Shown here one piece after another: positions 1,387-21,306 of a stretch of 21,306 nucleotides of DNA. The position numbers were made by a program, and so were the translations under genes. How positions within the stretch are numbered: position 1 is the stretch's first letter; each line of letters opens with the position of its first letter. Under the pieces are notes generated by a model that made no database searches, had not been told where the DNA came from, and worked only from the letters and a program-made list of their open reading frames with translations. The stretch comes from a virus. The stretch covers positions 1 through 21,306 of IMG/VR virus record IMGVR_UViG_3300047468_000076; one strand, given 5' to 3'.

Positions 1387-1418
1387 CAACCGGTGCACCG
1401 GTGCACCGATTCGCCGGT
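1387..1418. repeat. Array of four 8-bp units (ACCGGT type) between spike and wedge genes
   Basis: In 8-bp phase the sequence reads CAACCGGT, GCACCGGT, GCACCGAT, TCGCCGGT, followed by GC. Similar arrays occur at 15418, 16731 and 17302. This one begins 9 bp after the spike stop codon and is the only copy inside the late tail operon. See the finding on candidate RHH binding sites. Confidence 0.7.
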
Positions 1419-1457
1419 GCTCTTGCGCTTCGGTCGACTCTGCCTGTACAGCCCGGC

Positions 1458-1907
1458 GTGACCGACCTTGCGCTCGACCCGCTCGACGGGGACATCGTGA
1501 TCGCTGGCGGCGACCTTGCGCTCGTCCACGGGGCCGACGCCGTCGCCCAAGACATCAAGCTGCGCGTCGCCCTATTCAAGGGCGAGTGGCCACTCGATAC
1601 CCGCGTCGGCATCGACTACCGCACGCTCTTCTTTGAGCGCCGGCCTCCCGACCAGGTCGTGCGCGCGGTGTTCACGCAGGTGCTGCGCGAGACGGGCGGC
1701 GTCGCCAGCGTCGACCGGCTGCAGATTGGCTTCGCCCGCGCGGAGCGCTCGCTCAACATCTCGGCGACCGTCACGACGACCGCCGGCGAGGTCGTGCCGG
1801 TCTACCGCGACGTGCTCGTGACGCTCGACGCATCGACCGAGCCCACAGACACCGCCACGCCCACCGGCACCGTGGCGCCCGCGCGCTTCAACGGGGGTTC
1901 ACCGTGA
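1458..1907 (+). CDS. Baseplate wedge protein, gp25/W-like (Mu gp46-like)
   Basis: The 149-aa product from GTG 1458 begins MTDLALDPLDGDIVIAGGDL and continues with AVAQDIKLRVALFKGEWPLDTRVGIDY. This is the classic gp25/W-family pattern: a short strand-turn-strand start, then a helix and the 'F.GEW..D...GI.Y' motif. The protein joins baseplate wedges and helps initiate sheath assembly. The frame is open upstream to a GTG at 1401, but that start would place the 8-bp repeat array inside the gene and precede the family's normal N-terminus, so 1458 is preferred. The last codons overlap the next gene's GTG start (GTGA, 1904-1907). Confidence 0.8.
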   Translation: MTDLALDPLDGDIVIAGGDLALVHGADAVAQDIKLRVALFKGEWPLDTRVGIDYRTLFFERRPPDQVVRAVFTQVLRETGGVASVDRLQIGFARAERSLNISATVTTTAGEVVPVYRDVLVTLDASTEPTDTATPTGTVAPARFNGGSP

Positions 1908-3680: not shown

Positions 3681-6600
3681 ATGGCAATCACACTCACGTT
3701 CGACCAAGTAGACGCAGGCATCCCGGCCGGCAGCGTCGACCGCGGCCGCACCGACATCAAGAGCACCGGAGCTGTCGCCGCGACGCGCGCGCACACCGTG
3801 ACGATCACGGTCGGCAACATCCCGACCGGTGCGCTCGTCGACGTCGTGCTGCTCGACGAGCCGCCCAACAGTAACCCCCTACTCACGCAGCTCGCGCCGG
3901 AGACGTGGACGCTCGAGTTTGATATCGGGTGTTGGGGTCCGTTCCGTGTGCGCGTCACGGCCACCGCGAGCGGCCAGGTGGTGTCATCTGTCACGCGGCG
4001 CATCTCGATTCGCTCGCCGGGCTACCACATCGACTACCCCGGGCTCGCCGAGAGATACGACCCGAACGCGACGCTCGTGCCGACCGTGCCGTCGGTCGAG
4101 TTGACGGAGATGAATGAGGGCTCTACCAACCGCCCTCTCGTCGACTTTCACCGACAGATGGTCGAAGCCATCGAAGGCGGCGTCGGCGGCGGCGGCGGCG
4201 GCGTAATACCCGACGGCAGCATCACCGAAGAGAAGCTCGCTCCCTCCCTTAGCGACAACCTGCTTCGCGCCGACGGGACGATACCCTTTACCGGCGACCA
4301 GAATGCCGCCGGGCACATCATCCATAACGTCGGCGTCCCACTGCTACCAGGCGACGCCGTGCCGCTCTCGAGCGTCATCGCGGCCGTCAACCGCGCCGGC
4401 ACACGCACGCCGTGCCGACTCGTTGCAACGATTCCGATCACTGCGTCGAATACGCAAGTAGTCGACTCGGTCGCCACCGTGAACGGCGACCGCGTGCTGC
4501 TCACGGCGCAAGCGTCGCCAGTCGACAACGGCATCTACATCGCCAACGACGCCGGCGCGTGGCTGCGCAGCAGCGACGCAGACTCAAGCGAAGAGCTCCT
4601 GCCGGGCATGGTGATATTCATCACCGCCGGCACCGCCTTCGCGGACAGCGGGTGGATACTCTCGACCGATGCGCCGATCTTGCTCGGCACGTCGGCGCTT
4701 ACGTTCACGCGGTTTACTGGCTCCGCGCAGCTAATCGCCGGCGCCGGGCTTACGAAGACCGTTAACTCGCTCGACGTAGTCGCGCACGCTGACGGCTCGA
4801 TAGTCGTGTCTGCAGACGCCGTGCAGGTCGGCACGCTCGCGACCGATGCGCAGCACGGGACGCGTGGCGGCGGCCCGCAGCATGCCGCTGCGACGCCGAG
4901 CGTTGCCGGGTTCCAATCGGCACTCGATAAAACCAAGCTCGACGGCATCGCCAGCGGCGCCGCTGCGCTCTCGAGCTCGGCGCCGGCGAACGTCGGCACG
5001 GCAGCCGCGGTCGGCGTCGGCACGACGGCCGCTCGAAGCGACCACGTGCATGCGCACGGCGCGCAGACCGACGGCACGCTGCACGCAGCTGCGACAACGA
5101 GTGTTGCTGGATTCCAATCGGCACTCGATAAAACCAAGCTCGACGGCATCGCCAGCGGCGCCGCGGCGCTCTCGAGCTCGACGCCGGCAGCCGTTGCGTT
5201 TACGGGCTCGGTCGGCGTCGGCACGACGGCCGCTCGAAGCGACCACGTGCATGCGCACGGCGCGCAGACCGACGGCACGCTGCACGCCGCAGCGACGCCG
5301 AGCGTTGCTGGATTCCAGTCGGCACTCGATAAAACCAAGCTCGACGCGATCGCATCGGGCGCCGCTGCACTCACCACCAACGCGCCGACGCAAATCACTG
5401 TCACGACCGCCGCCGTCGGCGTCGAGACGGCAGCGGCCAAGGGCGACCACGTGCACAGTGTGTCGACGGCCGCACCGTCCGCGCTTGCCGTCGGCGGAGC
5501 GCAGAGCACCGGCTCGGCGACGTCGCTCGCGCGCAGCGACCATGCGCACGCCATGCCGGGGCTCGTCACGACCGCGGCAGATGGGTTTGCATCGGCGGCC
5601 GACAAGCTCAAGCTCGACGGCTTGGCAACCGGCGCCGCGGCGCTCACTGGGACGGCGCCGGTCGCCGTCGACAATGCGGCGGCCGCGGTCGGCGTCGGCA
5701 CGACCGCTGCGCGACACGACCATAAGCACACCGTGAGCGTCGGCACGCCCGTCGCGCTCACCATCGGCGGCGCGAACGCGCAAGGCTCGGCGACGACGGT
5801 CGCGCGCAGCGATCACACGCACGCCATGCCGGGGCTCGTCACGACCGCGGCAGATGGGTTCGCATCGGCCGTCGACAAGCTCAAGCTCGACGGCGTCGAG
5901 ACTGGCGCGCAGGTCACCTCGTTTGCGCGCGTGCAGACGGCGCTCGCTGCGGCGAGCTCCAACGTCGGCTTCAATGCTCAGCGTCTAACCAGCGTCGCCG
6001 ACCCGACCGCCGCACAGGATGCCGCGACAAAAGCCTATGTGGACGCCGTCGCCCTAGGACTCGATACCAAGGCGTCCGTGCGTCTCGTTGCGACCACCAA
6101 CGTCGCCGCGCTCACTGGCGCCGTCGCCATCGATGGCGTCACGACATCGGCCGGCGACCGCGTGCTGCTTACCGCGCAGACCGCAGGCAGTGCAAACGGC
6201 ATATACACGACCGCTGCCGGCGCTTGGGCCCGCTCGACCGACGCTGACAGCTCGGCAGAGGTCAACTCTGGCATGTATGTGTTTGTTACCGAGGGCACCG
6301 CCAACTCAGACAGCGGATGGGCCCTCACCACCAACGACCCGATCGTGCTTGGTACGACCCCCCTCGCGTTCACACAGGTTTCCGGCGCCGGCCAAATCAT
6401 CGCCGGCGCCGGTCTGACGAAGACGGGCAACCAGCTTGACGTCGTTGCGCACGCCGACGGCTCGATTGTGGTCGCCGCCGACAGCGTGCAGCTCGGCGTG
6501 ATTGCGACCGACGCGCAGCACGGCGCGCGCGGCGGCGGCACGTTGCACGCAGCAGCCATTGCCGGCGGAGCGTCTGGCTTTCTCACGGGCGTCGACAAAA

Positions 6601-14388: not shown

Positions 14389-14411
14389 CGACGGCCGCTT
14401 CGAATCCCGCA

Positions 14412-14435
14412 GGCTCTAGCCCGGACACTAGAGCC
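14412..14435. terminator. Stem-loop after the late tail operon (GGCTCTAG / CTAGAGCC)
   Basis: An exact 8-bp inverted repeat, GGCTCTAG at 14412-14419 and CTAGAGCC at 14428-14435, has an 8-nt loop. It lies 24 bp after the stop of the last tail gene and could terminate transcription. No T-run follows, so intrinsic termination is uncertain. The same GGCTCTAG box recurs elsewhere in the window, so it may instead be a protein-binding site. Confidence 0.4.
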
Positions 14436-14443
14436 CGCGAGCG
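14428..14443 (-). repeat. 16-bp GGCTCTAG-family box, copy A
   Basis: CTAGAGCCCGCGAGCG here is identical to 16686-16701 beside the parA start. A diverged copy, CTAGAGTCTCCGAGCG, is at 19972-19987. Both this copy and the 19972 copy have a second CTAG box about 8-14 bp away, so the similarity covers about 35 bp. Confidence 0.6.
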
Positions 14444-14494
14444 CCTATCACAGCGCACACCGTGCGAATAGCCCTGACATTGGAGCCAAAAACT

Positions 14495-15070: not shown

Positions 15071-15394
15071 CTACCCTACCAGCGGCAACGCCAGTTGCGC
15101 GCCGCTGCCGGCCTCGAGCGCGGCCGGGCCGCACTTCACCAGCGGCTTGAGCCGACCGTCCGCGTCGCTGGCAATGATCACCGCCCAGAGCCGAGCCCGC
15201 AGCCGGGCGCTCGCGCGTCGGCAGCCACGCTCGACCATCGCCAGCGTGTCGGCCGTGCAGCCCGCGAGCTGCGCCAGGTCGTTTATCCGCATGCGCCGCC
15301 CGCTCGGCAGCCGCTGCAGCTTGCGCCAGCGCCGAATCTCGAGCCCTTCGCCCTTCACTCCGCGCGCCGCCAACTGCTCGATTGTGAGTTCCAT
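15071..15394 (-). CDS. Helix-turn-helix DNA-binding protein, 107 aa
   Basis: Residues about 36-72 (RINDLAQLAGCTADTLAMVE, followed by RGCRRASARLRARLWAVI) have the spacing of an XRE/Cro-type helix-turn-helix: a helix, LAQLAGCTADTL as the turn and recognition helix, then a packing helix. It could be the phage-plasmid's repressor or a copy-number or partition regulator. The region upstream of its start (15395-15457) carries an array of five 8-bp units, which suggests that another protein, possibly the RHH product, controls it. It is followed after 7 bp by the 93-aa gene. The target is unknown. Confidence 0.6.
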   Translation of the reverse strand: MELTIEQLAARGVKGEGLEIRRWRKLQRLPSGRRMRINDLAQLAGCTADTLAMVERGCRRASARLRARLWAVIIASDADGRLKPLVKCGPAALEAGSGAQLALPLVG

Positions 15395-15417
15395 CGCTGC
15401 ACCGCCAGTCTACCGAA

Positions 15418-15457
15418 GCATCGATGCGTCTGTGCACCGGTGCATCGATGCGCTTGT
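15418..15457. repeat. Array of five 8-bp units upstream of the HTH gene
   Basis: In strict 8-bp phase the units are GCATCGAT, GCGTCTGT, GCACCGGT, GCATCGAT and GCGCTTGT. The array lies 24 bp upstream of the HTH start codon, inside its likely promoter or leader. It contains the 12-bp palindrome TGCACCGGTGCA (15433-15444). Confidence 0.75.
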
Positions 15458-15482
15458 ATACCACATATCCGCTATAAGCGCC

Positions 15483-15517
15483 GCCGGGCGCGTGTCTGGC
15501 GGCTCTAGGCGCCCGGC
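15483..15517 (-). terminator. Stem-loop downstream of the RHH gene
   Basis: A 9-bp perfect stem pairs GCCGGGCGC (15483-15491) with GCGCCCGGC (15509-15517) across a 17-nt loop. It lies 19 bp past the RHH stop codon in the direction of transcription. The loop contains GGCTCTAG (15501-15508). No T-run is present, so factor-dependent action or protein binding is possible. Confidence 0.45.
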
Positions 15518-15535
15518 GCTACCACGCGTTACCCC

Positions 15536-15952
15536 CTAACGTCGCTTGCGCGCCGCCAGCTCATTGCGCGCTATCCATTCCTTCGCCGCCGTCTCGGCCG
15601 CTTCGGACGCGCTCAGGTCGAGCGCTTCGGCACGCTCGGCGAGCCGCTCGAGCGTCGCCGTGGTGAGCAGCGCGGCGCCGCCGCCGAAGAATCGCTCGAG
15701 CGCATCCGCGACAACGGTCGACATCTCGATGCGCCGGCTCGCGCAATGGGCGCGCAGCTTCTCGCCGATCGCTTTGGGCAAGTAGCTCGTCACCCGGTCT
15801 AGCTCAGCCTTGCGCCGCCGGTGCACGAGCCCGCGCGCCGAGCCCTTCACCCCGGTGGGCTTGTCGACGAGCTCGAGCGCCAGGTCGTCGACGCCGGAGC
15901 CAGGGATAGCCGTTTGCCGCGAGCGCGGCGACGCCATGGGACGCGCTTTCAT
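15536..15952 (-). CDS. Ribbon-helix-helix partition partner / centromere-binding protein
   Basis: The 138-aa product starts at ATG 15952, overlapping the ParA stop (ATGA, 15949-15952). Residues about 52-90 (DRVTSYLPKAIGEKLRAHCA, then RRIEMSTVVADALERFF) fit a ribbon-helix-helix fold: a DNA-contacting beta strand with alternating residues followed by two helices and the typical 'S.VV..AL..F' end. The N-terminal 50 residues are basic and probably flexible, as expected for RHH partners that stimulate ParA. In type Ib partition (ParF/ParG, delta/omega) this gene follows parA and binds short repeats near the parA promoter. The 8-bp arrays at 16731 and 15418 are strong candidates for its sites. It has no ParB HTH domain. 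Confidence 0.7.
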   Translation of the reverse strand: MKARPMASPRSRQTAIPGSGVDDLALELVDKPTGVKGSARGLVHRRRKAELDRVTSYLPKAIGEKLRAHCASRRIEMSTVVADALERFFGGGAALLTTATLERLAERAEALDLSASEAAETAAKEWIARNELAARKRR

Positions 15953-16668
15953 GTGCGCACCTCGGCCGAGCGCACGGCTCGCTTGTCGGCGGCTGCGCCG
16001 CGTCTGGGTATGCGGCCGTCGGCGAGCTCTTCGAGCTCGGTCGCCAGCTGCCGCACCTCGCTCGCCGCCGCGCTCTTCGGGGCGTACTCAGTCACGCCGA
16101 GCCCGGCCGCGAACGCGTACCCGTAGTCGACCCGGTAGCAGCACTTGGTCTCGAGCGTCGGCAGCCCGACTTCGGCGATGGCCGCTTCCGCGTGTCGACC
16201 CATCAGCGTCTGTCCATCCCACCGTGTGAGCAGCGCCACGGCGATGCACGCGGGGCGCCGCTTCATCTCGGCGCGCGCGAGCGCGGCCGCGTCGTAGAGC
16301 GCCCACATCTCTTGCGCGGTCGAGCCGGTCGGAATGACCATCAGGTCGGCCATCGCGGCCGCGGCCGCTTGCACGTCGGCCAGCTGCGGGGGCGTGTCGA
16401 CGATCACGACATCAAACCCTTCGCCGATCTTGCGCAGCTGCTTGGCCAGCTTCGCCGCCGGCATCGCGCGCACGACGGGGGCATGCTCGAGCGCGTGGCC
16501 CCCTCGCTCGGCGGCAAGCCCAAGCCACGTCACCACGTGGCGCTGCGGGTCTGTGTCGACGATCAGCACGCTCAAGCCGCGCGCGCGCCATTCGACGCCG
16601 AGCGAGACGGCCGTCGTCGTCTTGGCGACGCCCCCTTTGTGGTTGGTCACTGCAACGGTGTAGCTCAT
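15949..16668 (-). CDS. parA: ParA-like partition ATPase (type Ib, small)
   Basis: This 239-aa protein from ATG 16668 shows a deviant Walker A motif KGGVAKTT at residues 11-18, with the signature lysine (K11) and K16. It also shows VDTDPQ at 37-42 and the Walker B-type VVIVDTPP at 87-94. It lacks the N-terminal HTH extension of P1-type ParA, which together with the RHH partner defines a type Ib partition ATPase. It should form ATP-dependent patches on the nucleoid that move plasmid copies apart. GTG 16674 is an alternative start two codons upstream. A GGCTCTAG box lies 18 bp upstream of the ATG and an 8-bp array 63 bp upstream. It is the best evidence that this phage genome is kept as a plasmid. 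Confidence 0.85.
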   Translation of the reverse strand: MSYTVAVTNHKGGVAKTTTAVSLGVEWRARGLSVLIVDTDPQRHVVTWLGLAAERGGHALEHAPVVRAMPAAKLAKQLRKIGEGFDVVIVDTPPQLADVQAAAAAMADLMVIPTGSTAQEMWALYDAAALARAEMKRRPACIAVALLTRWDGQTLMGRHAEAAIAEVGLPTLETKCCYRVDYGYAFAAGLGVTEYAPKSAAASEVRQLATELEELADGRIPRRGAAADKRAVRSAEVRT

Positions 16669-16676
16669 AGGCACTA

Positions 16677-16705
16677 GCCGTAGCGCTAGAGCCCGCGAGC
16701 GTCAA
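16677..16705 (-). promoter_or_regulatory. Candidate parA promoter (TTGACG ... TACGGC)
   Basis: On the - strand TTGACG (16705-16700) is followed after 17 nt by TACGGC (16682-16677). A start around 7 nt later would make a nearly leaderless parA message. The spacer contains the GGCTCTAG box, so a protein binding there would block the promoter. The -10 is weak. Confidence 0.3.
16686..16701 (-). repeat. 16-bp GGCTCTAG-family box, copy B, at parA
   Basis: CTAGAGCCCGCGAGCG is identical to 14428-14443. It lies between parA and the 8-bp array at 16731, inside the candidate promoter spacer. Confidence 0.6.
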
Positions 16706-16730
16706 TGCCTTGGTGGCTCGGTAGCTCTGC

Positions 16731-16770
16731 GCACCCATCGACCGGTGCGCCGGTGCTCCGGTGCATCGAA
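16731..16770. repeat. Array of five 8-bp units upstream of parA (candidate centromere/operator)
   Basis: In 8-bp phase the units are GCACCCAT, CGACCGGT, GCGCCGGT, GCTCCGGT and GCATCGAA. The array lies between parA (-) and the gene at 16807 (+), the place where type Ib partition systems carry their RHH-bound repeats. Confidence 0.75.
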
Positions 16771-16806
16771 AATACGGTCTTCGTTCGATTGTGTTAGAAG
16801 GCCCCC

Positions 16807-17103
16807 ATGGGCAACTTCTACGACCGGAAGGGGCAGCCGATGACACTCGAAGAGTGGTCGTCTGCATTCGAGGACTTCGAGGGGCGACGAATCGCTGCGG
16901 ACGAGTTGTACGGGTACACAGTTTCGACAGTGTGGTTGGGCGCCGACCACGGCTTCGGTCGCAGCGCGAAGCCGCTCATCTTTGAGTCGATGGTGTTCCA
17001 CGCCACAGAGCCGGAAGAGTGCCGTCGCTACGCGACCGAGGATGAGGCGCGAGCCGGTCATGCCGCGCTCGTCGCCGAGGTCAAGCTCGCGCACGGCAAC
17101 TAG
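16807..17103 (+). CDS. Conserved phage-type hypothetical protein, 98 aa
   Basis: The start ATG 16807 is preceded by AGAAGG. The product reads MGNFYDRKGQPMTLEEWSSAF, then VSTVWLGADHGFGRSAKPLIFESMVFHA, and ends YATEDEARAGHAALVAEVK. I recognise this 'FYD..G.P....EW...F.D....V..T......VSTVWLG.DH.F....P..FE.MVFG......RY.T...A..GH..MV' pattern from many phage and bacterial accessory genes, where its role is unknown. It is divergent from parA, with 138 bp between their starts holding the array and the GGCTCTAG box. Confidence 0.75.
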   Translation: MGNFYDRKGQPMTLEEWSSAFEDFEGRRIAADELYGYTVSTVWLGADHGFGRSAKPLIFESMVFHATEPEECRRYATEDEARAGHAALVAEVKLAHGN

Positions 17104-17370
17104 GGCAGCAGGGCGGCGCACCCGTTGACAGACAGGCATTTCTGAGTTTTCGGGATTTACGCCCGATAATGACCATTATGTAAACTCACCCACACTATGG
17201 GTGTGCTCGCGCAGAGGACTTCCGATCTGCACCCCTAAGTCAGCGGAACTGCTCGGCGCTCGGACGAAGAGGCTTAAGAAAAAGGCGTTTTGATCCGCAG
17301 TGCACCGGTGCATAGATGCGCCAAGCCACTTGGCGCTTGACGGTCGAGCAGGCTGCCTCTACTCGGTCGA
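17104..17370. other. Regulatory-looking intergenic region of 267 bp with palindromes
   Basis: This stretch is visibly richer in A and T than its surroundings. It holds GATAAT (17165-17170), a possible -10, overlapping the palindrome ATAATG-AC-CATTAT (17166-17179). A second inverted repeat, CACCCA-N5-TGGGTG, lies at 17187-17203. Further right are the 8-bp array at 17302 and an 8-bp hairpin at 17318-17336. The stem GCCTC(t)ACTCG/CGAGTGAGGC (17355-17377) covers the GTG start of the next gene. Together they look like a promoter with at least two operators. No gene is evident. Confidence 0.5.
17302..17325. repeat. Array of three 8-bp units upstream of the GIY-YIG gene
   Basis: Units GCACCGGT, GCATAGAT and GCGCCAAG are in phase. 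The last unit is also the left arm of the hairpin GCGCCAAG-CCA-CTTGGCGC (17318-17336). The array is about 45 bp upstream of the GTG start. Confidence 0.65.
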
Positions 17371-18420
17371 GTGAGGCCACTTCAACGCAAGACAACGAGC
17401 CCGGCGCAGCTTCCCTTCGCATGGGATGATGCGCCGCCAACCGAGCGCTCGGAGTCGCCGGCGCTGCCCGTGGTTGTTAGACCGCCGCAGCTCGAGCCGA
17501 CGGTCACGCTCCACCGCGGCACGCCGGAAAGCCTGGTCTACATGATCGAGGCGGTCGGCTCAGGCCTCGTGAAGATCGGCCGCAGCCAACGAAATCCCTA
17601 TGTCCGTATCGGCGAGCTCGGCACCGGCGCTCAGTTTCCTCTCAGCATCCTCCGCGCGATCCCGGGCGGGTCTGCCGCCGAGACTGAGTTGCATCGACGG
17701 TTTGACGACCACCATTCCCATGGTGAGTGGTTTTTCCTCGAGCCGATCCGTGCGGCGCTCATGGCATTGGAAACGATCAGGCTCGGAGACTGGCGTCCGC
17801 GCTGCGCAGGCTGCGGGAAGCCCATCCATTCGACTCGTCAAGTGCGATGCCGGCCGTGCGCCTCACAGCATATCCGCGATGCGGCGACGGCACGCTACGC
17901 GGCAGCGGGCACCCCGCGGCCGCACTGCGCGGTCTGCGACAAGGTCGTTGACCACGGAAGCAAACATTGCCCGCAGTGCGTCGCGAAGATACGCAGCCAA
18001 CGGGGCTTGCATAAGCGCTTTCGTCAGCCATGCGTTGACTGCGGTGGCCGTGTTAGCGCGGCCGCCTGCAAACGTTGCGGCCCATGCGAAAAGAAACGGC
18101 GCTCCCTAGTGGCAGCCGCACGAACAAGAGTCGGCGGCGCTCCTTGCTTGGACTGCGCGGGTCCGACGAGCGCGCCCGGGGTGAAGCGCTGTCATCGATG
18201 CGCATTCAAGCGCCGAAGTACCACTCCGCAATGCTTAGGTTGCGCCACGCCGATCGGCTTCGGAAGTAAGCATTGCAAGCCTTGCAGCAACAAGAGACGA
18301 AGCGCAGCTCGGAACCAACCCGCCGCCGATGCGTTGCCTCTATGGGCTGTCTCACTCGTGCGCGACCTCGAAGAGCCGACTCAGGTCGAGCTCGACGCCT
18401 TCGAACGGCGGCAGGCTTAG
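17371..18420 (+). CDS. GIY-YIG (MUG113/T5orf172-like) nuclease-domain protein with five zinc ribbons
   Basis: The 349-aa product from GTG 17371 has a GIY-YIG-like domain at residues about 55-130: SLVYMIEAVGSGLVKIGRSQ, then VRIGELGTGAQFPLSILRAI, AETELHRRFDDHH and GEWFFL. This is the pattern of the MUG113/T5orf172 subfamily, with a Y, a G-x-x-KIG core, an R and a catalytic-type E (E105). Five tandem CxxC-x10/11-CxxC zinc ribbons follow at residues 145-163, 186-203, 221-239, 259-277 and 288-305, each joined by basic linkers. It could be a DNA-binding nuclease (homing, anti-competitor or defence). The last 69 bp overlap the convergent Uma2 gene. The start codon is in a predicted stem. Confidence 0.7.
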   Translation: MRPLQRKTTSPAQLPFAWDDAPPTERSESPALPVVVRPPQLEPTVTLHRGTPESLVYMIEAVGSGLVKIGRSQRNPYVRIGELGTGAQFPLSILRAIPGGSAAETELHRRFDDHHSHGEWFFLEPIRAALMALETIRLGDWRPRCAGCGKPIHSTRQVRCRPCASQHIRDAATARYAAAGTPRPHCAVCDKVVDHGSKHCPQCVAKIRSQRGLHKRFRQPCVDCGGRVSAAACKRCGPCEKKRRSLVAAARTRVGGAPCLDCAGPTSAPGVKRCHRCAFKRRSTTPQCLGCATPIGFGSKHCKPCSNKRRSAARNQPAADALPLWAVSLVRDLEEPTQVELDAFERRQA

Positions 18421-18933
18421 CGCCGGTCGATACACATAGCGCTCGCACTTGTACACAGAGTGCGTAACCGGCATGTCGCACACGTCAATCCAGCGCTCGC
18501 GCGGATGCACCATCCAATAGAACGGCACCTCCATCGCAGCATACAACTCGCGCTTCGTCTTGCGGTCCCGTTGCGGCTGCTTCGAGAGCACCTCACACAC
18601 CCAGTCCGGGCGCTCTTCGAAGATGCCTTGATCCATGTCGGTCGGCGCGCGGTCTATCCGCCAGCCTGCGACGTCGGGGACCACGTATTCACGCTCGTCG
18701 CTCTCGCACAGCGCCTTCGGCAGGTAGACGCCGCAGCCCGCCAGAATGAGCCACTCGCGCCGACCACCACGCTTGCCGCCGCCGAGCTCGTCGTCGAGTT
18801 GCCGGCAAAGGTTACCGGCAACGAGATTGTGCCGAGCGCTCGGCGGTGGGTAAACAACGAGCTCGCCAGCGAATATCTCGGACCGTACGCCGTCGGGTAG
18901 GGCGTCGCGAAGCTGCTCGAGCGGGGTGCGCAT
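18352..18933 (-). CDS. Uma2 family (DUF820) PD-(D/E)XK nuclease-like protein
   Basis: The 193-aa product has the Uma2 layout: an N-terminal SEIFAGELVVYPPPSARHNLVAGNL, then VVPDVAGWR (D87), and PDWVCEVLSKQPQRDRKTKR (E114, K125/K127), followed by YAAMEVPFYWMVHP. The acidic residues and lysines are those expected for a PD-(D/E)XK core. Function of Uma2 proteins is not settled; they are abundant in Cyanobacteria, Myxococcota, Chloroflexi and other genomes. Its C-terminus overlaps the end of the GIY-YIG gene in antisense, and its start is 55 bp from the divergent 60-aa gene. Confidence 0.8.
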   Translation of the reverse strand: MRTPLEQLRDALPDGVRSEIFAGELVVYPPPSARHNLVAGNLCRQLDDELGGGKRGGRREWLILAGCGVYLPKALCESDEREYVVPDVAGWRIDRAPTDMDQGIFEERPDWVCEVLSKQPQRDRKTKRELYAAMEVPFYWMVHPRERWIDVCDMPVTHSVYKCERYVYRPALSLPPFEGVELDLSRLFEVAHE

Positions 18934-19930: not shown

Positions 19931-19987
19931 CTAGAGCCTTGGCGCGCTAGCGCGCGAGCTAGAGCGCCGGACTAGAGTCTCCGAGCG
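19931..19987. repeat. Cluster of CTAG boxes beside the origin
   Basis: Boxes are CTAGAGCC (19931), the palindrome GCGCGCTAGCGCGC (19942-19955), CTAGAGCG (19959) and CTAGAGTCTCCGAGCG (19972). CTAG occurs four times in 45 bp, spaced 16, 12 and 13 bp. The last copy resembles the 16-bp boxes at 14428 and 16686. Confidence 0.6.
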
Positions 19988-20178: not shown

Positions 20179-20239
20179 CCATGTCTGGAAGGGTCCTGGC
20201 CATGTCTGGAAGGGTCCAAGGCCATGTCTGGAAGGGTCC
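20179..20239 (+). repeat. Three 18-bp iterons (CCATGTCTGGAAGGGTCC)
   Basis: Identical copies lie at 20179-20196, 20200-20217 and 20222-20239, with start-to-start distances of 21 and 22 bp, about two helical turns. They sit between rep's 3' end and the CTAG cluster and next to DnaA boxes. They are the expected binding sites of the TrfA-like initiator. Confidence 0.85.
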
Positions 20240-20257
20240 CCGCGAATGGTGCTAGTG

Positions 20258-20277
20258 CGGGGATAACGTGTGGATAA
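20258..20277 (-). promoter_or_regulatory. DnaA boxes at the origin
   Basis: TGTGGATAA at 20269-20277 is the exact reverse complement of TTATCCACA, a perfect match to the consensus DnaA box. A second, 7-of-9 copy (CGGGGATAA) lies 11 bp to the left at 20258-20266. Their position 19-30 bp from the iterons fits an iteron-type oriV loading host DnaA. Confidence 0.75.
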
Positions 20278-20344
20278 CCTACCAACAGGTAGGGAACGCA
20301 AGCGCGCGCGTTTGGACCGTCGACGATCCGTCGGTGCCGGCCGC

Positions 20345-21121
20345 TTAGCGCTCAGTGGAAACAACGTCGCCGGCGAAGCTCACAGGCTCAGCGCCGCTGT
20401 TGCGAAGCTCTGCAACAGCAGATTTCACGCGCCGCCGCACTTGCTCGCGTGGCTGGCCAGGTGCGACGCGCTCGCGAATCGCTTCGAGCGTCACGCTCGG
20501 CGCCGCCGCCAGACAGAGTTGCACCCATTGCGCGAGCGGCCGGTTGCCGATCGTGTGTCGCTTCGCCTCCGACACGCCGACCATCCCGAGCGCCATCACG
20601 TCGAGCATGACTTCGTTGGCCCACAGCGTGACGGTAGAGCCGGTTGCCGATGCGCCGAGCAGCACACCGCCTACCGTCGTGCGCTCGCGACCCTCGCGAA
20701 ACCACACCACCGTTGCGCTCAGATCGAGCAAGAGACGCCACAAGTCTTCGAGGTGCAGCAGCCCGCATTTGCGACCCAAACGCCGGTTTATAGTGGCGAG
20801 AGTGACCGTCAACCGCGCGCCGGGCCCGCTGTCGCTCAGGTGCTCAAGCGCGACCATCAGTACATCGGCATGTGCTTGAGTGAGCTCGCAGCCGTGCAGC
20901 TGGTAGACGCGTTGGGCGCCTTCCACATCGACCGCTCGCTTGCGAGTGCGAGCCTTGCCGACGTGCGAAGCTGTGAAGACGTTTGCGCGGACGAGCTCTA
21001 GCGGCATCTGGAGGGTACCCGATCGGCATCGTGGCACGCGTTCGAGCGGCGCGCGAGTACGTGAAAGTGCGCTCTCGGCAAGAGCCTTGAGCTTGTCGGC
21101 CGCATCTGCTTTACTCGCCAT
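20345..21121 (-). CDS. TrfA-like plasmid replication initiator
   Basis: The 258-aa protein starts at ATG 21121 (alternative GTG 21124) after AGGGA. The middle matches the TrfA family as I know it: PLELVRANVFTASHVGK, then a short beta segment RVYQLHGCELTQAHADVLMV, ALEHLSD, and LTVTLATINRRLGRKCGLLH followed by LEDLWRLLLDLSATVVWF. In TrfA the equivalent is 'R..LF......' then 'Y.GEQL.Q.DLDV...LLHLA' and the winged-helix 'LL..LGR....-.L...L..L'. The C-terminal half has a winged-helix look. It would bind the three iterons and recruit the host replisome. Its gene points toward the iterons, which lie beyond its stop. Confidence 0.75.
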   Translation of the reverse strand: MASKADAADKLKALAESALSRTRAPLERVPRCRSGTLQMPLELVRANVFTASHVGKARTRKRAVDVEGAQRVYQLHGCELTQAHADVLMVALEHLSDSGPGARLTVTLATINRRLGRKCGLLHLEDLWRLLLDLSATVVWFREGRERTTVGGVLLGASATGSTVTLWANEVMLDVMALGMVGVSEAKRHTIGNRPLAQWVQLCLAAAPSVTLEAIRERVAPGQPREQVRRRVKSAVAELRNSGAEPVSFAGDVVSTER

Positions 21122-21306
21122 CACGAATCCCTGTGCGGGGCTCTAACCCGCCGATTCAGGACGCCGCGCTGCTGATAACAGTGCGGTGTCGCCCTATGGC
21201 CTCGGAGCCATGTACGCCAGAGTAGAGCCCGGCAGACACTGCAACGCAAAGAAAATCGGCAATGTGCGGACGATTGCCTACCGCTTGCGAGCTGCTTTGC
21301 GGGCTT
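21122..21306. other. Upstream region of rep to window end
   Basis: No gene is visible. The stretch contains GGCTCTAA (21139) and TAGAGCCC (21224), diverged members of the CTAG box family. It also contains the inverted repeats ATGGC-N6-GCCAT (21196-21211) and GGCAAT-N9-ATTGCC (21258-21278). These could be operators controlling rep. Confidence 0.4.

Follow-up and report, generated by a model that had tools for sequence, protein, structure and literature searches.

On the met boxes of MetJ, ribbon-helix-helix (RHH) dimers bind tandem 8-bp palindromes (AGACGTCT). Here we describe tandem 8-bp arrays in a stretch of viral DNA, the 21,306-bp IMG/VR virus record IMGVR_UViG_3300047468_000076 (hereafter the window), which are probably the partition sites (parS) and operators of a type Ib parA-RHH operon, as judged by comparison with described systems. 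Unlike the protein considered here, MetJ is a metabolic repressor and acts without a ParA ATPase.

Among partition systems, the RHH protein omega of plasmid pSM19035 binds 7-bp boxes in the promoters of copS, delta and omega, and full stimulation of ParA takes at least four contiguous boxes (PMC9499535). The delta-omega system combines an RHH protein and short tandem boxes on several promoters with both partition and regulation (PMC9499535), as we propose for the window, but its heptads are 7 bp long and nonpalindromic, and the plasmid is Gram-positive. ParB of the Myxococcus plasmid pMF1 binds dispersed iterons of the unit AGATGTCT, as seen by footprinting and electrophoretic mobility shift assay, and represses its own operon (PMC3235114). 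This type Ib system, parCAB, is similar to the window in that its ParA is 37% identical, a small DNA-binding ParB follows parA, and near-palindromic boxes are dispersed. However, it resides on a plasmid rather than a phage, uses another box, has a parC and holds its sites mostly between rep and par. In the mycobacteriophage RedRock, ParB recognizes an 8-bp motif that is present eight times in each of two parS loci (PMC7157519). RedRock is an extrachromosomal prophage with ParA, an RHH-like ParB and 8-bp arrays at parA (PMC7157519), and in this it is like the window, whereas its virion is unrelated and its strong arrays are confined to the parAB flanks, structural and regulator genes having yielded none. 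N15 and RK2, both named in PMC3235114, likewise have dispersed centromere sites. The sop system of N15, with the centromeres IR1-4 (PMC7205306), shares with the window a prophage-plasmid setting and a genome-wide spread of sites, but SopB is a helix-turn-helix (HTH)-type ParB and the sites are single inverted repeats.

The par locus of the Sandaracinus plasmid pSa001 encodes a ParA 35% identical to that of the window and an RHH partner that matches our profile (see below), and has an 8-bp array before parA, although with about 105 units in a single block. This unusually long candidate centromere (NZ_CP070226.1; L031:1624-2465) runs head to tail over 842 bp directly before parA, and 602 bp of the 842 bp form a perfect 16-bp repeat.

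Tandem 8-bp arrays in the window and its relatives

In the window, contractile-tail phage genes (baseplate J and baseplate wedge) are accompanied by parA and a small gene that overlaps it, and further by one gene each of the Xre-like HTH and GIY-YIG types. Relatives are designated by G or L numbers, and arrays were counted in four genomes, the window (G000) and its closer relatives G001, G002 and G003. The arrays of the window and the genes that they precede are as follows.

1388-1435, plus strand: 8-bp array AACCGGTG CACCGGTG CACCGATT CGCCGGTG CTCTTGCG CTTCGGTC, with its end 23 bp from the probable GTG start codon (1458) of the baseplate wedge gene
1458-1907, plus strand: baseplate wedge gene, 3' of this array (phrog_120, 4.6e-27)
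15071-15394, minus strand: Xre-like HTH gene, 107 amino acids (aa), a rival candidate for binding the arrays
15403-15457, minus strand: 8-bp array ending 9 bp from the start codon of the HTH gene, with the -10-like TGTGGTATACA upstream of the array; site and distance shared by G001, G002 and G003
16731-16771, minus strand: 8-bp array, candidate parS, upstream of the parA promoter and at the same time 36 bp from the start of the divergent gene at 16807
16807-17103, plus strand: small divergent gene for 98 aa, without a family match
17295-17325, plus strand: short array, CACCGGTG CATAGATG and weak units, before the GIY-YIG gene; counterpart in G002 at 36064-36095, in the same place before the gene
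17371-18420, plus strand: GIY-YIG-type (MUG113) and zinc-ribbon gene

The initial annotation had reported units in strict 8-bp phase at 15418, 16731 and 17302, each set upstream of a gene (HTH, parA and GIY-YIG, respectively), and we found all three arrays in these places. Direct reading gives five units at 15418 (GCATCGAT GCGTCTGT GCACCGGT GCATCGAT GCGCTTGT) and five at 16731 (GCACCCAT CGACCGGT GCGCCGGT GCTCCGGT GCATCGAA). At 17302 (GCACCGGT GCATAGAT GCGCCAAG), two of the three units previously counted are good and the third is only weak, and this array, with a score of 5.9, is by itself no better than the best shuffle. The list of three was also incomplete, the array at 1388-1435 before the baseplate gene having been overlooked.

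After a one-base shift, the units, in strict 8-bp phase, read as the near-palindrome CAYCGRTG. Two-fold symmetry is apparent over 155 boxes (C 74%, A 67%, C/T, C 78%, G 76%, G/A, T 81%, G 75%). The permuted palindromes CACYRGTG, YACCGGTR and CRTCGAYG also scored and were rejected as independent boxes, being near-copies of the same one. With a threshold score of at least 5, there were four arrays in the window, nine in G001, eight in G002 and five in G003, against 0.04, 0.01, 0.07 and 0.09 per first-order Markov shuffle, respectively, and the signal was essentially restricted to periods 8 and 16. As short GC-rich direct repeats near plasmid genes, the arrays could be taken for replication iterons or for chance repeats of a GC-rich genome. 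Both were rejected on the period test, the large excess over shuffles and the presence of a separate set of 22-bp repeats that is a better iteron candidate, which makes this explanation extremely improbable.

Outside the group, 8-bp arrays were found at the par loci of three ParA systems, those of pSa001, RedRock and pMF1. In pMF1, a box scan located AGATGTCT units in 8-bp phase at several places. In RedRock, two strong arrays flank parAB and a third site is marginal, with none at structural genes; RedRock ParB gave weak matches to RHH_1 and Antitox_RHH. By analogy, these par-locus arrays, with the published recognition by ParB in RedRock and pMF1, give good support to the proposal of the initial annotation that the arrays are type Ib centromere and operator sites. 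Absence of arrays at parA in close relatives would have spoken against that proposal; they recur both there and at the HTH gene.

The parA-RHH operon

15949-16674, minus strand: parA, encoding a small ParA ATPase of type I, probably from ATG 16668; its stop overlaps the start of the RHH gene
15536-15952, minus strand: candidate RHH centromere-binding protein (ParB analogue) of 138 aa, whose RHH core spans residues ~52-89 and has the ribbon DRVTSYLP
16678-16705, minus strand: sigma70-like parA promoter TTGACG-N17-TACGG, the same in G001 and G002

ParA, of 241 aa, has its Walker A motif near the N terminus and no N-terminal HTH, as type Ib ATPases do. It matched AAA_31 (1.1e-20), phrog_164 (4e-46) and NF041546 (1e-47; 162 bits, under the curated cut-off of 180). 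Its top named matches belong to the myxobacterial plasmids pMF1 (37%) and pSa001 (35%), a weak hint at the host. The 4-bp overlap of the two genes places a small RHH gene in the same operon, and tandem short repeats at the par promoter are kept in relatives; both are features of type Ib loci.

An alignment of seven orthologues of the RHH protein shows the RHH pattern, DRVTSYLP followed by a helix-turn-helix. The core profile built from these seven sequences matched the pSa001 protein in the ParB position with an E value of 4.7e-5, compared to 0.087 for the best decoy in 2,000 shuffles, and the pSa001 protein itself belongs to Pfam 56B_RHH, above the cut-off. The RHH assignment, weak alone, is thus supported by the profile match to a clear RHH protein, in agreement with the initial annotation of the product at 15536. 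Scans of genome contigs, plasmids and phages with the RHH protein gave no matches.

Past the RHH core, a second helix pair at residues ~98-130 matched RHH_1 weakly (E = 0.56). Two RHH-like units may be present in the protein, of which G012 lacks the second.

Placement of the arrays at genes and promoters

The arrays avoid coding DNA: their mean overlap is 0.34 versus 0.90 at random, and none of 5,000 trials was as low (26 arrays, simple open reading frame [ORF] calls). Distances to start codons are constant, namely, 9 bp for the HTH gene, 23 bp for the baseplate wedge gene, 20 bp for the first gene of the late head operon and ~100 bp for the divergent neighbor of the latter. The array at the baseplate site is shared by G001, G002, G003, G004, G007, G009, G013, L026, L033, L034 and L036. 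In relatives, the first late-operon gene encodes a head maturation protease (phrog_530, 2.4e-83), and a conserved TTGACA-N17-TACGC promoter (TTGACA being the -35 element) lies only 4 bp from the end of the array, so that the true start may be slightly downstream or the transcript leaderless. The window and G001 to G003 together have 13 TTGACV-N17-TAYRV promoters, of which 7 are no more than 60 bp away from an array (expected, 0.36). An array is also found upstream of a CI-like repressor gene (HTH_3, 2.3e-6) in G002 and G001.

Dispersed ParB sites exist in pMF1 and N15, and the RHH protein might accordingly bind all arrays purely as centromere sites, with their nearness to promoters having no regulatory role. 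This is quite improbable given the bias of the arrays to gene starts, their fixed distances and their proximity to -35 elements, and also given that pMF1 ParB and omega do regulate promoters.

Two arrays have no obvious downstream start codon: one in G003 (342-381), between convergent ORF calls, and one in G001 (40734-40757), inside an ORF call before a Rep-like gene. Separately, near-identical promoters of the form TTGACA-N13-CCAATAC[AG] precede several genes of the group (G000 19390; G001 31008; G002 20328, 21267 and 33920; G003 12119 and 12613).

Replacement of the box in distant relatives

ParA- and RHH-protein-based scans of viral sequences returned close kin only. The distant relatives G010, G011 and G012, the last a 24-kb fragment, were found by a scan with the baseplate J protein, in which they are 56-70% identical. 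All three encode ParA and the RHH protein, at 35-47% identity. The CACCGGTG box is missing from them, apart from one weak array in G011, and other 8-bp-phased boxes take its place: GAGCGCTC in G010 (8 runs versus 0.4 at control periods), AGTGCGCT in G011 (6 versus 0) and AGTCGACT in G012 (2 versus 0). These boxes were picked after inspection, a bias that the period controls reduce and do not remove. We also measured self-similarity at lag 8 with no box assumed. This box-free test gave P values of ≤0.05 at 27 of 32 sites overall and at 8 of the 12 orthologous sites in G010 to G012, the individual values being modest (0.002-0.05). At pMF1, it was aimed at the wrong promoter, as parC precedes parA there, and the arrays of this plasmid are those found by the box scan. 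In the distant relatives, period 8 and many sites have been kept, while the box sequence and the RHH protein have both changed.

The distant relatives also bear on whether the Xre-like HTH protein, and not the RHH protein, reads the arrays, which would then be stoperator-like prophage-repressor sites unrelated to partition. An array lies 9 bp before the gene for this protein in four phages, and the protein co-occurs with arrays in G000 to G003, G010 and G011. However, G012, as far as its 24-kb fragment extends, has no match to the HTH protein and yet has 8-bp arrays before parA. The footprint of an Xre dimer is normally at least 14 bp, to which an 8-bp repeat is ill suited; separate CTAG-centered inverted repeats, such as GGCTCTAGC..GCTAGAGCC, would suit an HTH dimer. 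Furthermore, the stoperators of Cluster A are single asymmetric sites for an HTH repressor, whereas the sites here are phased tandem arrays of a near-palindrome, and in RedRock and pMF1 such arrays are tied to ParB rather than to an HTH repressor. We therefore consider the HTH protein an unlikely reader.

The CTAG-centered inverted repeats (GGCTCTAGC..GCTAGAGCC; GCTAGCAAGTGACCTGCTAGC) occur in the window at 14400-14455, 16674-16700 and 19931-19967, in G001 at 5765, in G003 at 16805 and 16874 and in G012 at 18636. Found repeatedly in intergenic DNA and across the -10 region of parA, they are likely a second class of regulatory site, possibly for the HTH protein.

The CI-like HTH_3 repressor encoded outside the window (G002 29450-30046 and orthologues) could likewise use the arrays as operators. 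It is conserved at 80-84% in G001 to G003, and an array is present in the divergent region upstream of its gene (G002 29269-29308, similarly in G001). The geometric objection of an 8-bp repeat to an HTH dimer applies here too, and we know of no 8-bp-phased operators for CI-like repressors. Arrays are, moreover, also present at plasmid par loci such as those of pSa001 and pMF1, which leaves this repressor a very improbable reader.

Candidate replication origin and other features

20179-20239, plus strand: 22-bp direct repeats, 2.8 copies, candidate plasmid origin; DnaA-box-like TGTGGATAA at 20269-20277
20345-21124, minus strand: gene next to the 22-bp repeats, without a family match; candidate replication initiator

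Gene content across the group includes baseplate, sheath, terminase, head protease and parA, together with 22-bp repeats and a DnaA-like box; no Rep family was recognized. Positions 20179-20279 and the gene at 20345-21124 are a candidate Rep/iteron origin. In G002, 22-bp repeats of another sequence lie near a diverged homologue of this gene. G001 also encodes a tyrosine recombinase near parA (L017:1-987; Phage_integrase, 6e-12), which may resolve plasmid dimers or integrate.

Discussion

Taken as a whole, a type Ib-like parA-RHH operon whose arrays serve as parS and as operators, including those of lytic genes, is in our view the likely explanation. Direct observation provides the arrays, their phase, sites and conservation, the replacement of the box, the proximity to promoters and an RHH-type protein. 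Most likely, RHH dimers would load side by side on the near-palindromic boxes in their 8-bp tandem arrangement. The RHH protein would use the array before parA as its main centromere and as an autoregulatory operator, and the remaining arrays as extra centromere sites and operators. Its targets would be the HTH regulator, the GIY-YIG gene and the baseplate gene and, in relatives with the region, the late head operon and the CI-like repressor gene. In the dormant state, a single protein would be shared by segregation and lytic-gene silencing.

Several points weigh against this explanation. Array binding by the RHH protein, partition activity and repression, including that of late genes, are predictions. 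Direct family searches with the RHH protein gave insignificant matches only in Pfam and PHROG, with NCBIfam ORF56 at 0.13, and its AlphaFold model is poor (pLDDT of 49), two helix pairs being visible. Conservation in the group extends to the HTH and CI-like proteins, so that co-occurrence does not single out the RHH protein. The predicted DNA-facing ribbon residues R-T-Y are identical in the window group, G011 and G012 despite their different boxes, indicating that box specificity is not accounted for by the ribbon alone. In addition, the box-free test detected no array at the baseplate site of G010 and G012. Finally, we infer that the window is part of a phage-plasmid and that its prophage has a plasmid state.

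The placement of parS-type arrays on phage baseplate/structural, late-operon and regulator/repressor genes goes beyond precedent, and the regulon first proposed, the HTH and GIY-YIG genes, should widen to phage baseplate, late-operon and repressor genes. We tentatively suggest, with somewhat less than even confidence, that the RHH partition protein silences lytic (late head operon and baseplate) and regulatory genes throughout the genome via parS-like arrays, that segregation and dormancy are set by this one protein, and that replacement of the 8-bp box in the different lineages was joint at most sites. If this is true, such joint replacement would give rise, in a single step, to new groups for both partition incompatibility and immunity. 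Partition proteins have mostly been studied as segregation machines, and the placement of the arrays suggests that one protein may serve both to maintain the prophage and to silence lytic genes. Relatives in which these same sites have rewritten boxes offer a natural series for following RHH specificity, plasmid incompatibility and superinfection immunity as they shift together.
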